A DNA stretch of 45,114 bases, taken from positions 1-45,114 of IMG/VR virus record IMGVR_UViG_3300044712_001142. The stretch is one strand, 5' to 3'. A program made the position numbers and the translations under genes. How positions within the stretch are numbered: position 1 is the first letter of the stretch; each line of letters opens with the position of its first letter. Source of the DNA: a virus. This document shows, piece by piece, positions 27,879 through 42,577 of this stretch. Below the pieces are notes generated by a model. The model made no database searches. It saw only the letters and a program-made list of their open reading frames with translations, and had not been told where the DNA came from.

Positions 27879-28514
27879 CTAAATTCCTATTACGGAATCG
27901 GTTGGTTGATATGTGGGTAGATCTTGTCGGACATCTAAACGTCTTAAGGGTACAAGCTGGTAGAGCTGCCAGGCAATCGCCAGGCTCATGACTAGATCAT
28001 CGTGGGCGTTTTCTTCGGCTTCTGGCTTACCCTGCTTGTTGATAATAAAGGTGAATAGCTCTTTGACGGTGGGTGGATCATACAGGGTGATAACTTTGCC
28101 ATTAATCGCGTCTTGTAAGTCTTGCAGCATCTTAGGCCTGGTGGCTGTGTTTGTGTCCCAACCGATCTTGTTGGGGTCGCTATTCTCAGTTGAGCCATAG
28201 GTAGGCATGGTAAAGAGCGTGTACTTACCGTTACGGTTTAATCTGCCTAAACGTTCTAGCTCAAACAATCCACCATTCTGGCGCTCATACGCAATCATTG
28301 GCTGTAAACCAGTGTCAGTGTAGATCTTCTCCAACTCATCATGAATAAATGGGGTAATTGCCGTGATTGATTTCTGATCGTGTATCACCACGGGTACATC
28401 CAAGTGAGTCTTTGAGAGGAATTGGGCTGAGGTGTAGTCAGCACCACCGGCTGAGGTGTCCACCCCGACCACAATAAATTCACCTCGTTGATAGGTTCTA
28501 TAGCGTCTTAACAT
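27879..28514 (-). CDS. terL: Terminase large subunit, nuclease half (separate frame)
   Basis: This 211-residue frame holds the RNase H-like nuclease domain of the packaging motor: FIVVGVDTSAGGADYTSA with Asp19, IAYERQNGG with Glu77, and NAHDDLVMSLAIAW with Asp172/173. These are the acidic metal ligands. It lacks an ATPase domain, which lies in the frame immediately upstream. The two overlap by 17 bases and are offset by one base. It could be translated from its own ATG by coupling, through +1 frameshifting, or the split could be a sequencing or assembly indel. The domain assignment is firm, the gene structure is not. Confidence 0.85.
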   Translation of the reverse strand: MLRRYRTYQRGEFIVVGVDTSAGGADYTSAQFLSKTHLDVPVVIHDQKSITAITPFIHDELEKIYTDTGLQPMIAYERQNGGLFELERLGRLNRNGKYTLFTMPTYGSTENSDPNKIGWDTNTATRPKMLQDLQDAINGKVITLYDPPTVKELFTFIINKQGKPEAEENAHDDLVMSLAIAWQLYQLVPLRRLDVRQDLPTYQPTDSVIGI

Positions 28515-29292
28515 GCTTGGTGGCCTCTAAATAATGTTTTAATGCTTCTTTGTCAAAGTAATTCTGTCCCGATGTGATAAACGCCTCTAGTGCAGTCTCA
28601 GGATACTCTTGTGGGTATAGTTCTCTTAACTCGCGCTTCTTCTGCTCTAAAAACTCAGGCGTGTAAAAGAGCGAGGCAGAGAAGAACAAGGGATTAAACC
28701 CGGTCACGCCCAGTTCTGACTCATCCCAAAACTCTTTAAACTCATTAAAGCCATTAGCGGTAGTCTCAATCACAACCCGACCATCAGGCCTAACCGCTTG
28801 TAAGGCAGAAGCTAAGAGCTTGCGAAAATGCTTATAGAACGCTGCTTCGGACATATGCAGGTTTTTAATGGTCTTGGAGCGGCCAAACTCGGTATTCTCT
28901 GCGGTGCCAATCTGGTACCGTGAGTTCATCATCTCGTTGACCATCTCATATTTAGAGTTGTACTTTAATGGGATTTTAAAGCCGGTCTTATGCTCATAAC
29001 TTTTTAAGTAGAATTTAACTTTATCAAGTAAGCCAGTTGCGTTATCAGAGATATCAGCAATAACCACTGAGTGTGAGTTTTGATCTAAGATAAAATCCCC
29101 GATATAAATGCCGCCTATAAGTGAGCTAAACCCTTCTTGTCGGGCTTTTAAAAGAATATCTTTGCCGGTTGACTGCTCTACAAACAGCTTTTGTGGTCCG
29201 TTGGGGATAAAGTCCACAATCTGTCCCTGCTTATCAATGATCTGCAATCGTTCTTGGATGAACTTTTCGTATGGCTTATATACCGAACTCAT
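28498..29292 (-). CDS. terL: Terminase large subunit, ATPase half (separate frame)
   Basis: This 264-residue frame carries the packaging ATPase: the deviant Walker A KARQEGFSS (residues 49-57), Walker B LHMSEAAF with Ser148-Glu149, and coupling motif ETTANG (176-181). It stops just after QNYFDKEALKHYLEATKHV, where a full-length protein would lead into the nuclease domain. The ATG overlaps the small-subunit stop region by 17 bases. Full-length terminases usually have 450-600 residues; the two halves together give about that. Confidence 0.85.
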   Translation of the reverse strand: MSSVYKPYEKFIQERLQIIDKQGQIVDFIPNGPQKLFVEQSTGKDILLKARQEGFSSLIGGIYIGDFILDQNSHSVVIADISDNATGLLDKVKFYLKSYEHKTGFKIPLKYNSKYEMVNEMMNSRYQIGTAENTEFGRSKTIKNLHMSEAAFYKHFRKLLASALQAVRPDGRVVIETTANGFNEFKEFWDESELGVTGFNPLFFSASLFYTPEFLEQKKRELRELYPQEYPETALEAFITSGQNYFDKEALKHYLEATKHVKTL

Positions 29293-31558: not shown

Positions 31559-31948
31559 TTATCTATTTGTGATTTTTGTTGTTATGTTTTTAAACTTGTT
31601 CCACACATAATTACCCTCTTGTAAGTGTTCTAAAATGTGGACGATTCCCATTGCTAAGTATTCTGCATCTTCAATGTCGATAGGTTTAAATCTTAAAGTA
31701 AGGCTTGTAGTCGTTGGGATAAGATCTATGTGACTAAGTGAAGCATCCTCGAACCAATCAGGGTTATCCCAAATAAGATCAATTATTCCTTTTTCGTTTG
31801 AGTTACACACAAAACAACCGTTATCAGAATGGCCTGTTTCATAGTATGTTTTACCATTATTCAACTGATAACTACCATTAACTCTATATAGAACGGTATC
31901 TTTATTAAGATTTCCAAATGGTAAATCTTTAAGTAATCGTTTCTTCAT
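31559..31948 (-). CDS. Hypothetical protein
   Basis: This 129-residue protein has a beta-like N-terminal half with a CFVCNSNEKG turn and an acidic helical C-terminal half (PIDIEDAEYLAMGIVHILEH). AAAGGAAAG precedes the ATG. It lies in the early operon. No family is recognised. Confidence 0.5.
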   Translation of the reverse strand: MKKRLLKDLPFGNLNKDTVLYRVNGSYQLNNGKTYYETGHSDNGCFVCNSNEKGIIDLIWDNPDWFEDASLSHIDLIPTTTSLTLRFKPIDIEDAEYLAMGIVHILEHLQEGNYVWNKFKNITTKITNR

Positions 31949-31979
31949 ACTTTCCTTTGTAATTTAATTATTAATTCTT

Positions 31980-32966
31980 CTATTTAATTACTGGTTTCTT
32001 GCCATTAATTAGGGGAACGTAGATAAGGAATTTGCCCTTAACTAGTCCGATGGGATATAGTCCCATTTCCCACAATTCAAATATTGGGTGGAATGGTGAA
32101 GATGGATATTTTTCTTTGTATGCTTTAATGTCCTCAACAATGATTGATTCGGCATCCCAAGCGGCATCCCGAGCGGCACCACAAGCGGCATCCCGAGCGG
32201 CACCCCAAGCCGCATCCCAAGCGGCACCACAAGCGGCATCCCAAGCGGCATCCCGAGCGGCACCCCAAGCCGCATCCCAAGCGGCACCACAAGCGGCACC
32301 CCAAGCCGCATCCCAAGCGGCATCCCCAGCGGCATCCCGAGCGGCATCCCGAGCGGCATCCCGAGCGGCATCCCGAGCGGCATCCCAAGCGGCACCCCAA
32401 TCATTACTTGTTTTTAGATATTTAAAAGAAATTGATGCTTTCTTTAAACCAAATAGATTTAGATTTAACTCAACTTTGGCCTCGATTGCGGTTTTATCAA
32501 GATGTGTTTCTGGTTTAAACCATTTAACCTGCTTCACTCTTTCGATAAACTTTTCAACCTTTTTTTGTTTCTCTTTTAAGGATTTCTTATTCTCTGCTGG
32601 AGTCATTCCCACAATTTGAGTGAATAGGTAATTTTTAATCTTAGAGTTTTTAACCTCTTGTAGTCTTTTCCACTCATCAGGCACATCTTTCAACCAAGCA
32701 TAGATTTGTTCGGGTGTTTTTAAATCTGTTTTAACTAGGTTTTTAGCGTTTAAGTTAGCCTTTTTAGGGTCTATCTTGGATACAACACTCTCAGCAAAAT
32801 CATCATATTTATCCGCTATTAGTTTATTTTCCCACCAATGATACTCAAACTTTCTATAATCATCCTCTTTAATTTTTAGGTTCTCTGCCGCTTGTGAGTG
32901 GCTATTGGTACCAGTCCCAAGTAAGGCCCGGTTGTTATCAGCAAAGATTGGACATCCGTCACACAT
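31980..32966 (-). CDS. Protein with Ala-rich tetrapeptide repeat (DAAR/DAAW/GAAC) domain
   Basis: This 328-residue protein has an N-terminal helical region of about 190 residues with MCDGCPIF at the start and Lys-rich coiled stretches. It then has 20 tandem tetrapeptides of the form [DG]-A-A-[RWCG] (residues 191-270) and a short C-terminal domain (ESIIVEDIKAYKEKYPSS). The repeat would form a continuous helix with one face of Ala and alternating Arg or Trp. The 12-base unit also leaves other frames open. Related low-complexity helices occur in uncharacterised phage proteins; no function is known. Confidence 0.6.
   Translation of the reverse strand: MCDGCPIFADNNRALLGTGTNSHSQAAENLKIKEDDYRKFEYHWWENKLIADKYDDFAESVVSKIDPKKANLNAKNLVKTDLKTPEQIYAWLKDVPDEWKRLQEVKNSKIKNYLFTQIVGMTPAENKKSLKEKQKKVEKFIERVKQVKWFKPETHLDKTAIEAKVELNLNLFGLKKASISFKYLKTSNDWGAAWDAARDAARDAARDAARDAAGDAAWDAAWGAACGAAWDAAWGAARDAAWDAACGAAWDAAWGAARDAACGAARDAAWDAESIIVEDIKAYKEKYPSSPFHPIFELWEMGLYPIGLVKGKFLIYVPLINGKKPVIK
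32157..32396 (-). repeat. 20-unit, 12-bp tandem repeat inside a gene
   Basis: The plus strand reads repeated GCGGCATCCCGA and GCGGCACCCCAA variants in strict 12-base register. Each unit encodes one tetrapeptide on the minus strand. The absence of frame breaks shows that length changes occur in whole units, which marks a likely variable locus. Confidence 0.9.
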
Positions 32967-33195
32967 ATAATCCTTTCGCCCGTAGGCTAATTATTAATTC
33001 TTCTAGTTGTTCGTCTTTATCCATCGCCCACTTGATGAGTAGAGCTAGCTTCTCGCTGTCATTCTTGGCTCTCATGACAGTCTCGTAATCGCTGTTTTTA
33101 AGCATTAGGTGGTCTTGATAGTCGGTTCTAAGAAACATAAACTCCTTATAATTCAGCGGTTCCACCTTTTTCAACTTGTCTTTCGTACTCTTCAT
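32959..33195 (-). CDS. Hypothetical helical protein
   Basis: This 78-residue charged helical protein (STKDKLKKVEPLNYKEFMF start) ends in an 8-base overlap with the repeat protein gene and starts 50 bases inside the zinc-ribbon gene. It is unassigned; the overlap pattern fits a dense phage early operon. Confidence 0.45.
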   Translation of the reverse strand: MKSTKDKLKKVEPLNYKEFMFLRTDYQDHLMLKNSDYETVMRAKNDSEKLALLIKWAMDKDEQLEELIISLRAKGLYV

Positions 33196-33462: not shown

Positions 33463-33917
33463 TTAGACCCCCAGCATGATTTACTAGCGTTCCAAGGATT
33501 GGTACCTGACGCATCAAATAAAGCCTTAGCAATTTGGATATTTATATGTTCATTAGTCAGCCAATCCCGCCTCACGCCATGAACCGAGGCCATGATTTGA
33601 AAAACGCCCGTTGCAGTACTCTCTTTGTTCTTAGCTCCAGGTTTTAATCCTGACTCACAACGTGCGACTTTAATCATGAGTGAAGCATCTTTGCCAAATA
33701 CGGCTCTGATCTCTTCTTCTATGCTTTGAGGTAATCGTGGTACTTCCACTAGCTTCTCAACCTCTCGTTCTATCACGGCTAAATCAGAGGCAGGCGAAAC
33801 AAACGCGGCCTTGGCTTGCAGTTGGTGGTGGATGAGATTAATCGCAAACACTACCAGTAGCGTGAATGTGGTAACTTTGTAAATATCCTTACGGACTTTA
33901 ATTTGTCGGGATGTCAT
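33459..33917 (-). CDS. Membrane-anchored lytic transglycosylase-like protein
   Basis: This 152-residue protein has a basic N-terminus, a membrane segment (about 14-31) and a C-terminal SLT domain. The catalytic Glu88 lies in VARCESGLKP, followed by ESTATGVFQIM and NPWNASKSCW. SLT enzymes cut glycan strands of peptidoglycan. Its place in the early operon, far from the lysis cassette, suggests a role in entry or wall remodelling rather than lysis. The ATG at 33917 overlaps the upstream gene by 20 bases. Confidence 0.7.
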   Translation of the reverse strand: MTSRQIKVRKDIYKVTTFTLLVVFAINLIHHQLQAKAAFVSPASDLAVIEREVEKLVEVPRLPQSIEEEIRAVFGKDASLMIKVARCESGLKPGAKNKESTATGVFQIMASVHGVRRDWLTNEHINIQIAKALFDASGTNPWNASKSCWGSK

Positions 33918-34500
33918 TGAATACCTCCTCTGCTGCTGGTCTAGCATCACGCAAATATTTTTGTTCTTCTAACCTGGCTATTAATTCGTTGAGCTGGGTT
34001 AGGTTCAGCTCGTTAAACTTGCTGACTCCATACCGGGTGATTGCTCGTTGTTTAGCCTTTGTTACATCGTGTTTTAATTCCTTGCACAGATCGACAAACC
34101 TACAGGATTGAGCGTATAAATCCTTATTAGCCTTACTGGTGGTGAGTGAAGCTGCTTTCTGTTTTAAATCTTCAAAACCCATAGTTTCCTTTACTGCTGA
34201 ATCTGATTGATAACTTTGGCTCATGTTGTGGGTGTATTCGTGATACCAGGCTGAGTGAGTCTCAATACCCACCTTTTTAGTCAGGCAATATATATGCTGA
34301 TTGGCTGAACATAATATATTTCTACCTTTACCCCTAAGCTTGCAGGTACAGCCCCATTTAGACCGGATATGATTAATTGCCCGGTTTTGCTGGGTTTCTG
34401 TTTCCCGTTGCAGCTCAAAGACGGATATCCCTGGATGGTTGATAATTAAATCAACCAGGTGTTGTTCTTTAAGGTTCAGTGGTACACCCAATAGTTTCAT
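33898..34500 (-). CDS. Winged-helix DNA-binding-like protein
   Basis: This 200-residue protein has an N-terminal winged-helix-like segment (KEQHLVDLIINHPGISVFEL, then QQNRAINHIRSKWGC) and a cysteine-containing wing. The helical C-terminal half includes TLTQLNEL-like repeats (NELNLTQLNELIARLEEQ). It follows the gene-free structured region and has AAAGGAAAG before the ATG. It could be a replication or regulatory protein of the early operon. There is no specific family. Confidence 0.45.
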   Translation of the reverse strand: MKLLGVPLNLKEQHLVDLIINHPGISVFELQRETETQQNRAINHIRSKWGCTCKLRGKGRNILCSANQHIYCLTKKVGIETHSAWYHEYTHNMSQSYQSDSAVKETMGFEDLKQKAASLTTSKANKDLYAQSCRFVDLCKELKHDVTKAKQRAITRYGVSKFNELNLTQLNELIARLEEQKYLRDARPAAEEVFNDIPTN

Positions 34501-34959
34501 ACTTTCCTTTGTCTGTCCTCTAATATTTGATTTTTAAATTGAAAGGGGCCACCTGGCCTCGATGGTAGTAGCCCCTTTCGCTTGCTCTCTCTCAAAAAAG
34601 CAGTTAGTGACTGGTGGCGCAGAGCCTCAGTGCGCCGCTCAAAGGTGTCTGAGGTTGCGCGCCATCAATCACGAACCGTTAGTAAATGTGCGTTCAAAAC
34701 ATTCAGTGAGAGAGGCAAGGATTTGACGAGAGGCAGATTGTTCCGAACTGCCTAGTTTTCACAGTCGTTTCAGACTTGCTTTTGATACTCGTTTAGTCAC
34801 CTTGCATGAGTCGGGTTCAGCGTTTCTATTCCCGGCTGCTCAACCAATGCTGACTTGTGCGTTACTTTTCCGCCACTCTCTCATTCAATGTTCTGTTAAA
34901 GTACCTAGTGATCTCTGGGGTGGGGCTATGCTCGTAGCCCCATGTCACAAATCGCTAGT
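34501..34959. ncRNA. Gene-free, highly structured region: candidate large phage RNA
   Basis: No convincing frame occupies these 459 bases between the ERF gene and the winged-helix gene. The region holds many nested helices. GAAAGGGGC (34541) pairs with GCCCCTTTC (34571). TGGCGC (34615) with GCGCCA (34659) encloses CCTCAG (34625) with CTGAGG (34649). A 17-base helix joins 34698-34714 to 34876-34892 (one mismatch, one G-U on the plus strand). Inside it GCAAGG (34715) pairs with CCTTGC (34800), and GGCAG with CTGCC (34732/34748). GGGGCTA (34922) pairs with TAGCCCC (34935). No intrinsic terminator ends it. The strand is unsettled: the G-U pair favours plus, the operon favours minus. GOLLD and ROOL are precedents for such phage RNAs, but I cannot match either. 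Confidence 0.5.
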
Positions 34960-35613
34960 TTATTCCCATGATTGCATTTTAATTAATTGGTCGATGATTT
35001 GAGAAGCTTGAGAGGATGATAAGCTCGTGATGTGATCAAAACCAAACTTGGCTTTTACTTCATCTTCCGTAGTTTTTAATCTGCTTATGTTGTAAAAAAT
35101 CATTCCCCTTTGTTTGTCGGTCAAAGGTGTAAATGATCGCTGCTCTGATGGCTGGGATGGTGCTTGTGCGGGTCTGTTGGGTTGTGGTGTAGGTTGTGAT
35201 GCTTGTTTCTCTTTACCGTGTGTGTTGGTGGTGTCGGAGTCTTTGGTATCGTCTATGGCAAATAGACCATTTAAAGCGTACTTTCTAGCATAACTGGATG
35301 CAGCCCCGGTAACCTGTGCGCCATCCATTCCTTTCTTTGTTTCTTCTTCTCGGGCGTAGGCTGGTATTGATATAGATTCTGAACCTTCCATAATTGTGGC
35401 GGTAGCTTTGACATAGTAGCGTGTACCTATTTGGATAATCTCATCTGCTAGTAAGATCACAGCCCCACCAAGTAAGGGTTTGAGAGCGTTTAAAATATCC
35501 TCACATGATCGGTATTCATAATTGCCGAAATTGTTTCGTTGGTTCTTGGGGGCTTTTAATTTCTGTTGGATTTCCGATAATTTAGCTTGCAACATAGGTT
35601 CTCTTTCTGACAT
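34960..35613 (-). CDS. erf: ERF family single-strand annealing protein
   Basis: This 217-residue protein fits the ERF superfamily: KLSEIQQKLKAPKNQRNNFG, YEYRSCEDILNALKPLL, strands AVILLADEIIQIGTRYYVKA, and the signature GAASSYARKYALNGLFAIDD. A Gln/Pro-rich linker (150-170) leads to a short C-terminal helical domain. ERF proteins anneal single strands for recombination and genome circularisation. AAGGAAAT precedes the ATG. It marks the recombination part of the early operon. Confidence 0.9.
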   Translation of the reverse strand: MSEREPMLQAKLSEIQQKLKAPKNQRNNFGNYEYRSCEDILNALKPLLGGAVILLADEIIQIGTRYYVKATATIMEGSESISIPAYAREEETKKGMDGAQVTGAASSYARKYALNGLFAIDDTKDSDTTNTHGKEKQASQPTPQPNRPAQAPSQPSEQRSFTPLTDKQRGMIFYNISRLKTTEDEVKAKFGFDHITSLSSSQASQIIDQLIKMQSWE

Positions 35614-36538: not shown

Positions 36539-36567
36539 ATTTTAAGTAACAGATTGACCAATGTCAA
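36539..36567 (-). promoter_or_regulatory. Promoter of the HTH gene
   Basis: On the minus strand TTGACA and TAAAAT are separated by exactly 17 bases, close to the sigma70 consensus. The -35 overlaps the palindrome TTGAC-CAAT-GTCAA (36554-36567) and the -35 of the integrase promoter. Confidence 0.65.
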
Positions 36568-36609: not shown

Positions 36610-37710
36610 ATGGCTACAAAACGGCGTGTAAATGGTGATGGTTCCCTGTTCTGGTCTGAATCTGAAAAGGTTTGGATTGGGCAAATCCTGCTGCCTGATG
36701 GTAAGAGGAAGCGCAAGCGCAACAAGCTCCAGCGTGTAGTCAAAGCCTGGTTAGATGAGCAAAAGGAACAGATTAAAACCGGGTCATGGGTATCGGATGA
36801 ATCAACCAAGTATGGTGATTTTCTTGACCGTTATATGTCAGAAATTGCCGCCCACACCCTCAAACCAAAGACTCTGGAAAACTACTACTTCATCATCAAG
36901 AACCACATCAAGCCGGAATTAGGTGATATGAAGCTGTCTGCAATCCGGCCTGAGCATCTGCAATCTTTATATGCCTCTAGGCTGTCAAGAGGCCTCTCAA
37001 AGCACACAGTGGTGTATATCCACTCCGTGATACATAAAACCCTGGAAACAGCCCTCAAATGGGGTCTGGTGGGTCGTAATGTGGCCGATGCGGTCAATGT
37101 ACCCCGACCAGAAAAGAATGAGATACACCCCTTATCAGTGGATGAGGTTAAGAGGCTCTTAACAGTCTTAGAGGGTGACAGACTGTATGCTTATTATGTG
37201 CTCATGTCTACTTCTGGCATCAGAAAAGGGGAGTGCTTAGGTATCCAGAAAGAGGATTTAAACCTCAATCAAGGCACCATGATCATTCGCCACTCAATCT
37301 CACAGGTGAGAGGTAAGGGCATGATCTTGCAAGATCCAAAAAGCGAAAAGTCACGCCGGGAGCTGGCTTTGCCTCCGTTTACAGTCAAGGTGCTGCGGGA
37401 ACATCTCGAAAAACACCCGACCACGTGCGGTTATGTGTTCGCTACTTCCAACAATACGCCATTTTCACCCCGAAATATCCTGAGACATTTCAAATCCAAG
37501 CTAAAAGAGGTAGGCTTGCCCGAGGGAACGCGGATACACGACTTACGACATTCCTTTATCAGCTGGCTGTTAGCGTCTGGAGTCCCACCCAAAGATGTCC
37601 AAGTTATTGCTGGCCATGCACAATTTAATACCACGATGGATATTTATGGCCATGTGATGCCGGGTGCAAACAAGGAAGCAGCCAAAAAGATCGAGGGAAT
37701 GTTTGGATAG
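36610..37710 (+). CDS. int: Tyrosine recombinase (phage integrase)
   Basis: This 366-residue protein has an N-terminal AP2-like arm-binding region (GDGSLFWSESEKVWIGQILL), a core-binding SAM-like domain (about 65-165) and the catalytic domain. The catalytic residues are Arg205 in TSGIRKGE, Lys244 in DPKSEKS, His310 and Arg313 in HDLRHSF, His336 in AGHAQF and nucleophile Tyr346 in MDIYGHV. All are present, so the enzyme looks active. AGGAAGGTGC precedes the ATG. The gene ends 163 bases before a tRNA-His 3' fragment, its expected attachment site. Confidence 0.95.
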   Translation: MATKRRVNGDGSLFWSESEKVWIGQILLPDGKRKRKRNKLQRVVKAWLDEQKEQIKTGSWVSDESTKYGDFLDRYMSEIAAHTLKPKTLENYYFIIKNHIKPELGDMKLSAIRPEHLQSLYASRLSRGLSKHTVVYIHSVIHKTLETALKWGLVGRNVADAVNVPRPEKNEIHPLSVDEVKRLLTVLEGDRLYAYYVLMSTSGIRKGECLGIQKEDLNLNQGTMIIRHSISQVRGKGMILQDPKSEKSRRELALPPFTVKVLREHLEKHPTTCGYVFATSNNTPFSPRNILRHFKSKLKEVGLPEGTRIHDLRHSFISWLLASGVPPKDVQVIAGHAQFNTTMDIYGHVMPGANKEAAKKIEGMFG

Positions 37711-37873: not shown

Positions 37874-37918
37874 CTGTGGATGAGGAGGTTGTGGGTTCGA
37901 AACCGACTAGGCACCCCA
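37874..37918 (+). other. 3' half of tRNA-His: att core
   Basis: The sequence matches a tRNA-His from the anticodon loop onward: loop CTGTGGA with anticodon GTG (37876-37878), 3' anticodon stem TGAGG, T-arm GTGGG-TTCGAAA-CCGAC, acceptor strand TAGGCAC, discriminator C (the bacterial tRNA-His identity base) and encoded CCA. The 5' half is absent: no GTGCCTA acceptor strand lies upstream and the 5' anticodon stem does not pair. A T-stem G-G mismatch suggests drift. This is the expected attR or attP core of an integrase that uses the tRNA-His 3' end. Confidence 0.8.
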
Positions 37919-37942
37919 ACATTTAGGGGTACGTAAGGAAAG

Positions 37943-40171: not shown

Positions 40172-40365
40172 ACTCTTTAAATATACCCAAGCATACAAGC
40201 GCCTATTGCACATCTTTAATAGTTGTGCTAGTTTGGGTATAGAGAAGAGTTATATAGGGTCGATTTTTTGTACCTACCTCAAATTCAAGTCGACTATAAC
40301 AACCCCCCAGTTGGTGACTCTTCTCTAAAGACCCGCCAGCTGGGGGATTTTTGTAATTTAAACAT
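40172..40365 (+). promoter_or_regulatory. Structured leader of the replication gene
   Basis: A 9-bp helix (TATACCCAA 40182 with TTGGGTATA 40233) encloses GCACA (40208) with TGTGC (40224). GAGAAGAGT (40242) is complementary to ACTCTTCTC (40317), which lies in the loop of the terminator at 40304-40352. The layout suggests transcription attenuation or an RNA-based copy-number control of the downstream gene. No ribosome binding site is evident before ATG 40366. Confidence 0.5.
40304..40352 (+). terminator. Terminator just upstream of the replication gene
   Basis: CCCCCAGTTGGTG pairs with CGCCAGCTGGGGG (13 bp with two G-U) around a 17-base loop, followed by ATTTTTG. It ends 13 bases before ATG 40366, so it acts as an attenuator unless bypassed. 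Confidence 0.8.
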
Positions 40366-41043
40366 ATGCCCAATCCACAAATCGAAGACGGTTACACCAA
40401 AATAGCCAATGAAATATTGGATGAACTAATGAAAAGACATCTCAGCTCATATGAATGGCGGTGTTTATTGTTTGTCTTAAGGAAAACATATGGGTGGAAT
40501 AAAAAAGAAGATTGGATCAGTCTTAGCCAGTTTGTTGAAGCAACAGAAATTCAAAGACCTCACGTTTGTAGAGCATTAAAAATGCTATCAAAACAAAATA
40601 TCATTACCAAAGGGGGCACTATTACCCAGCCACTATATAGCTTTCAAAAATACTCAAGTAAATGGACGGCATTACCAAAGGGGGCACGCAGTCATCACAT
40701 TACCAAAGGGGGTAATGAGGTGTTACCAAAGGGGGTAATTGGGGTAGTGCCAAAGGGGGCACATACAAAAGAAACAATTACAAAAGAAACTATACAAAAG
40801 AAAGAATATATACCCATCACAGAATTAAATGATTTACATTTTCAGCAAATAGCAGACCGTTATAGCGTACCTATTAGCTTTGTAAGATCAAAATATGACG
40901 ATATGGTTAATTGGCATGAAAGCACCGGAAAGAAAAAAAAGGATTGGATAGCCACCCTTAGAAACTTCGTTAAAAACGATTCATTAAAATTACGAAAGGA
41001 TGCTTATGGAAAAAGCAATATCGCCTTTATTGAAACCCAATGA
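40366..41043 (+). CDS. Phage replication protein O-like (N-terminal winged helix)
   Basis: This 225-residue protein starts QIEDGYTKIANEILDELMKR and continues WRCLLFVLRKTYGWNKKEDW and RPHVCRALKMLSKQNI, the lambda O-type N-terminal domain that binds replication origins. The middle is repetitive, with five PKGG/TKGG-type tripeptides (residues 85-140). The C-terminal part is basic. O proteins load the helicase. Its leader has an attenuator-like structure. It is the only replication initiator candidate seen in the window. Confidence 0.8.
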   Translation: MPNPQIEDGYTKIANEILDELMKRHLSSYEWRCLLFVLRKTYGWNKKEDWISLSQFVEATEIQRPHVCRALKMLSKQNIITKGGTITQPLYSFQKYSSKWTALPKGARSHHITKGGNEVLPKGVIGVVPKGAHTKETITKETIQKKEYIPITELNDLHFQQIADRYSVPISFVRSKYDDMVNWHESTGKKKKDWIATLRNFVKNDSLKLRKDAYGKSNIAFIETQ

Positions 41044-42225: not shown

Positions 42226-42284
42226 CTTACCTCCTTTGTAAATACCACGGCCATAGCCCAGAGGGATAGCCGTGTGATGAGCAA

Positions 42285-42464
42285 CTAACTCGCCTTGCTC
42301 TCAATCACCCATCTAAATGGATTGATTAAGATGGCAGAACCACAATTGGGGCATTCGTAATACTTCCACCCCTCGTATCCCTCACCAAGTTTCACTCTAT
42401 TGGTAAGTTCTCTTAGTTGGTTCCTGCACATAGGGCAAGGTCGGTAAAGTGGTCGCTCAAACAT
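42285..42464 (-). CDS. Zinc-ribbon protein
   Basis: This 59-residue protein has two CPxC pairs (RPCPMCRNQL and YECPNCGSAI), a classic zinc ribbon. The ATG at 42464 follows GGAGGTG at 6 bases. It lies between the ATPase gene and the Cys-rich gene. It probably makes a nucleic-acid or protein contact; the function is unknown. Confidence 0.65.
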   Translation of the reverse strand: MFERPLYRPCPMCRNQLRELTNRVKLGEGYEGWKYYECPNCGSAILINPFRWVIESKAS

Positions 42465-42542
42465 AGCTATCACCTCCAGACTATGGCCTGCTTTATCAGG
42501 GACTTAAGCCCTGGTGCAGCCTATCAGTTTTAAAGGTTCAAA

Positions 42543-42577
42543 GCGTCCAAATGCGTCCAAATGCGTCCAAATGCGTC
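42543..42577. repeat. 10-bp tandem repeats after the ATPase gene
   Basis: GCGTCCAAAT is repeated three times, followed by a fourth, changed copy (GCGTCTAAC). The array starts at the stop codon of the HerA/VirD4-like gene. It could be an iteron set or a simple repeat. Confidence 0.6.

Follow-up and report, generated by a model that had tools for sequence, protein, structure and literature searches.

A delimited, structured segment without a gene behind erf of a temperate podovirus-like phage: a candidate RNA or control element

The gap and its place in the leftward operon

The 459 bases between the genes erf and orf200 (34501-34959) form a real, delimited and acquired-looking structured element. 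The gap is free of genes, lies between genes of one operon orientation and folds into significant hairpins, and the main hairpin has a run of six U residues (U6) behind it. Our tentatively favored explanation is that the leftward transcript has a structured intercistronic segment here, which acts in cis where erf meets the downstream unit. Such a cis-acting boundary element was considered more likely than any of its rivals, namely a discrete or antisense RNA, a DNA element, and a remnant. At present the gap is a candidate RNA or control element, not a demonstrated ornate phage RNA.

The window analyzed was the 45,114-base IMG/VR virus record IMGVR_UViG_3300044712_001142 (positions 1 to 45,114). 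Its genes encode an SU10/P22-like portal, terminase, major head protein, integrase, O-like initiator, and Erf-like annealing protein, and its source is a temperate podovirus-like phage. The upstream neighbor of the gap is erf (34960-35613, - strand), which encodes an Erf-like ssDNA annealing protein, and the downstream neighbor is orf200 (33898-34500, - strand), encoding 200 aa of no known family. The two genes are co-directional and both abut the gap; on the - strand, orf200 is followed by an SLT-domain gene and then by the terminase and head genes. The leftward operon is headed by a good promoter match, TTGACA-17-TAAAAT (36539-36567, - strand), and the hairpins of the gap are found about 1.6 kb into that operon, behind erf. 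The initial annotation had placed the gap in an early operon, which is reasonable since this match is the nearest good - strand promoter (36567-36539), and its description of the region as early, noncoding, and structured held in all three respects. The limits of the gene-free stretch were exact, with no ORF of 60 aa on the operon strand. A hidden or decayed gene was rejected: five of the six frames had no Pfam match, and the two frames scanned against PHROG had none there.

Other features were recorded in the window. An identical 17-mer leader with a ribosome-binding site was present upstream of orf200 (34495-34511) and upstream of ORF 31559-31948 (31944-31960), and a related 39-base leader (32970-33008) preceded the 328-aa ORF 31980-32966 (- strand), inside which a 12-base unit is repeated in tandem about 21 times (32150-32400). 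The large terminase (27879-29292) was apparently split into the overlapping ORFs 28498-29292 and 27879-28514; several relatives had a single ORF of about 390-440 aa at this place.

Folding of the gap and the question of an origin

The minimum free energy of the gap was -156.7 kcal/mol on the - strand (z -5.87) and -167.9 kcal/mol on the + strand (z -5.88) relative to dinucleotide shuffles, none of which was as stable in 100 on either strand. The gap was therefore more stable than shuffled sequence, with z about -5.9, but symmetrically in strand. In per-base stability it ranked first among the gaps of the window on the + strand and within the best two on the - strand.

Three simple local hairpins and one long-range helix account for the excess stability. 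The 5' hairpin (34905-34958, - strand; 11 + 8 pairs) begins at the erf stop codon, with z -6.6 (-) and -6.8 (+) and pair probabilities of about 0.98. Among the significant hairpins of the window, no 80-base stretch was more stable than the two-part hairpin (34600-34682, - strand; z -5.2 on -, -6.7 on +). The initial annotation had drawn its helix at 34615-34664; the helix exists (probability 0.96), but its true span is wider and consists of 17 pairs (34603-34621/34658-34676) plus 9 pairs (34625-34636/34644-34654). The last hairpin (34540-34580, - strand; z -5.3 on -, -4.0 on +) lies upstream of the orf200 ribosome-binding site. The previously reported 17-base long-range helix (34698-34714/34876-34892) was recovered with 15 of 17 pairs Watson-Crick and a mean pair probability of 0.94. 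It belongs to a helix of 18 pairs (34695-34714/34876-34895, - strand) whose domain, 34695-34895, had z -2.9. The 161 bases enclosed by this helix (34715-34875) folded at chance level (z -0.19 on -, -1.03 on +), leaving an ornate nested fold unsupported. The helices named in the initial annotation were thus present with pair probabilities above 0.9, but the nested complexity that it claimed, of six or more helices, was not confirmed.

Strong intergenic hairpins were also found elsewhere in the same phage, for example at 40172-40365 (z -7.3), so the gap is the longest hairpin-rich stretch rather than the sole one. The gap serves as a caution that a highly significant folding energy is by itself no proof of an ornate RNA, since here it derives entirely from three local hairpins and one long helix. 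The 40172-40365 stretch, which separates the HNH gene from the O-like gene, contains two long hairpins and a terminator-like hairpin, its z of -7.3 being that of the + strand. A second structured gap, 42226-42576 (z -4.6 on -), holds a small zinc-ribbon ORF (42285-42464, - strand) between inverted arms, which may allow the ribosome-binding site of the ORF to pair with the 3' end of the ORF. Next to this gap are four 10-bp repeats, CAAATGCGTC (42539-42577).

The 17-base inverted arms flanking 161 bases could also be read as the ends of a small element or of a decayed gene, with the gap a remnant of an inserted cassette that has no present function. The gap looks acquired because erf relatives in other phages have none behind erf, and the inverted arms around a small ORF at 42226-42576 provide a similar layout. 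However, no target duplication was seen, no protein family was detected in the frames scanned, no second copy existed in the window, and three other strong hairpins would be left unexplained, which made a remnant improbable.

Inverted repeats are strand-symmetric, and the equal z values on both strands would equally suit an element acting as DNA, such as a second replication origin, a site of single-strand initiation, or a packaging or recombination site. The gap adjoins erf and falls within the minimum of the cumulative GC skew, a broad plateau of about 1.3 kb (about 33.7-35.0 kb), although this plateau is no strong argument for an origin there. When folded as DNA, the gap was less exceptional (z -2.6) than when folded as RNA, which is a weak hint for RNA. 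The initial annotation had offered an origin of replication as an alternative, but no iterons or DnaA boxes were found in the gap, and the lambda-O-like gene (40366-41043) carries its own five iterons, TTACCAAAGGGGG, at 40600-40762. AT-rich direct repeats (40764-40807) follow directly after these iterons inside the same gene, the layout of a lambda-type origin. The replication origin is thus probably located at 40600-40807, an origin in the gap is disfavored, and a DNA-level role for the gap in general was considered quite improbable.

Strand, transcription signals, and the proposed boundary element

The U6 run (34594-34599, - strand; the A6 run starts at 34594) is located one base behind the two-part hairpin. 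From the 18 runs of A6 or longer in the 45 kb window, we estimated that such a placement would occur by chance in about 1% of cases, counted over three hairpins and two strands. The operon direction and the position of U6 behind the most stable hairpin favor the - strand. Three further signs of strand were rejected: enrichment of unpaired A on the - strand was 0.466 versus 0.463 in shuffles, G-U pair counts were not above shuffles on either strand and gave no wobble asymmetry for the + strand, and the energy advantage of the + strand (11.2 versus 7.9 ± 5.2 in shuffles) was an effect of composition.

An antisense RNA on the + strand, ending at hairpin 34905-34958 with TTTATT, was evaluated with these results. 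The lower minimum free energy on the + strand and the best terminator score in the gap (-3.9, for this end hairpin) are consistent with it. However, the energy difference is accounted for by composition, the TTTATT overlaps the erf stop codon, and no + strand promoter match was found in or just before the gap, so that this was the least probable of the explanations.

None of the hairpins in the gap was a good terminator by the d'Aubenton-Carafa-type score. The two-part hairpin with U6 scored -25, below the classical range, and the best score on the - strand was that of the last hairpin, 34540-34580 (d = -13). By comparison, the three clear terminators of this phage, each a hairpin with a U tract at another - strand gene boundary (15385, 23267, and 27579), scored +21 to +28. 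The gap resembles intrinsic terminators and attenuators in that U6 comes directly after a stable hairpin in the direction of the operon, and it differs from them in its 78-base stem-loop with low energy per base and in the score of -25 versus +21 to +28. Hairpins for RNase III processing or retroregulation occur in phage operons, as in lambda sib and T7; the gap shares with them long stems (17-26 pairs) behind a gene.

The cis-boundary explanation was favored because of the fold significance, the co-directional abutting genes, and the promoter at the operon head, because U6 follows the most stable hairpin by one base, with a probability of about 1% by chance, and because terminators of the hairpin-U-tract type are in use at further - strand gene boundaries of the phage. 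It was weakened by the low terminator scores (best -13 on -, -3.9 on +), by the length of 459 bases, which far exceeds what an attenuator needs, and by the fact that composition and energy do not decide the strand. In the proposed mechanism, a leftward transcript of the - strand would run through the gap between erf and orf200. The hairpins, the largest with U6 behind it, would most probably stop some of the transcripts by attenuation, and/or would shield the erf message at its 3' end or direct its processing there. By such regulated read-through, orf200, the SLT-domain gene, and the terminase and head genes would be made later or at a different level. It is possible that the largest hairpin together with U6 is the attenuator or processing site.

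The same signals could instead delimit a discrete trans-acting noncoding RNA of about 375 nt, extending from about 34969 to 34592 on the - strand and transcribed from its own weak promoter. Hairpins are situated at both ends of such an RNA, with U6 behind the last one, the GC content of the gap was above that of 95% of same-length stretches of the early region, and a weak sigma-70-like site, TTCTCA-18-TAAAAT (34976-35005, - strand; 9/12), is placed such that an RNA started from it would begin about 10 bases ahead of the 5' hairpin. However, matches like this one were as frequent in shuffles, the interior folded at chance level, and neither a homologue nor an Rfam match was found, so we regarded a discrete RNA as rather unlikely.

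Known RNA families and relatives of the gap

The size and nesting of the gap had been likened to the ornate phage RNAs GOLLD and ROOL. Rfam 15 at gathering scores gave no match in the gap. At E <= 10, the gap and its surroundings returned just chance-level fragments of unrelated families, and a search of the whole window placed nothing in the gap. Covariance model searches with GOLLD (RF02032) and ROOL (RF03087) singly, as proposed with the initial annotation, gave no match at E <= 10; the silence of ROOL carries little weight, as control genomes were likewise silent. GOLLD and ROOL are RNAs of phages and prophages, often near tRNA islands, and GOLLD members are often >800 nt (PMC12286853). 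The gap is similar to them in being a large structured gene-free stretch in a phage genome (PMC12286853), and differs in having no family match, no tRNA gene in the 45,114-base window, and a long-range helix whose interior folds at chance level; the resemblance was therefore not upheld. A group II intron, suggested by a look at the sequence, was rejected, with no Rfam match at E <= 10. Downstream of the integrase gene (36610-37710), the stretch 37880-37920, GGTTGTGGGTTCGAAACCGACTAGGCACCCCA, resembles by eye a tRNA 3' end, His-like with C before CCA, and is probably attP; cmscan of this fragment gave no tRNA match.

The put elements of HK022 act on the transcription of early genes, as an RNA that makes the polymerase transcribing it less prone to pause and terminate (PMC9378689). 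Stem-loops in an early phage operon with a possible influence on RNA polymerase are common to both, whereas the hairpins of the gap come after erf, about 1.6 kb into the operon; the gap and put were compared through Rfam only.

Relatives of the gap were sought by several routes. Sensitive blastn found no match in phages at 1e-5 or in plasmids at 1, and raising the limit to 10 yielded nothing from phages beyond short chance pieces. IMG/VR was searched by way of the ERF, orf200, portal, integrase, and SLT proteins and with three exact DNA patterns; these protein-neighborhood and pattern searches returned an identical contig and chance matches, with no diverged homologue. The identical contig, IMGVR_UViG_3300042876_000502, agreed at 100% wherever the two were compared and was the only copy found, and 16-mer matches in IMG/VR were judged to be chance. 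No such gap was present behind erf in about 80 other phages, no homologue was found at 17 portal-relative loci, and three near full-length portal relatives had no stretch similar to it. Two covariance models, one of the central domain and one of the two-part hairpin, matched only the window itself over 1.03 Mb, and scanning 84,980 species genomes with the portal turned up no relative. One candidate homologue, L106:1490-1640 (- strand; GAGAG..GGGAAAAGCAAGCG..CCTCTC), had looked convincing by eye but was rejected, since it scored 96 versus 101.9 ± 14.6 in shuffles and was missed by the covariance model. In this related phage it is a strongly structured gap in its own right, situated after a holin-like ORF and unrelated in sequence to that of the window.

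A new class of phage noncoding RNA of about 375 nt, expressed from the early operon to act either in trans or on polymerase, with its other members unsequenced so far, was considered unlikely. The cis-acting boundary element remained the explanation that we tentatively favored. If transcribed, the gap would add to the early control or noncoding RNAs of phages one without a known relative. Its present value is that of a well-delimited candidate with exact coordinates.
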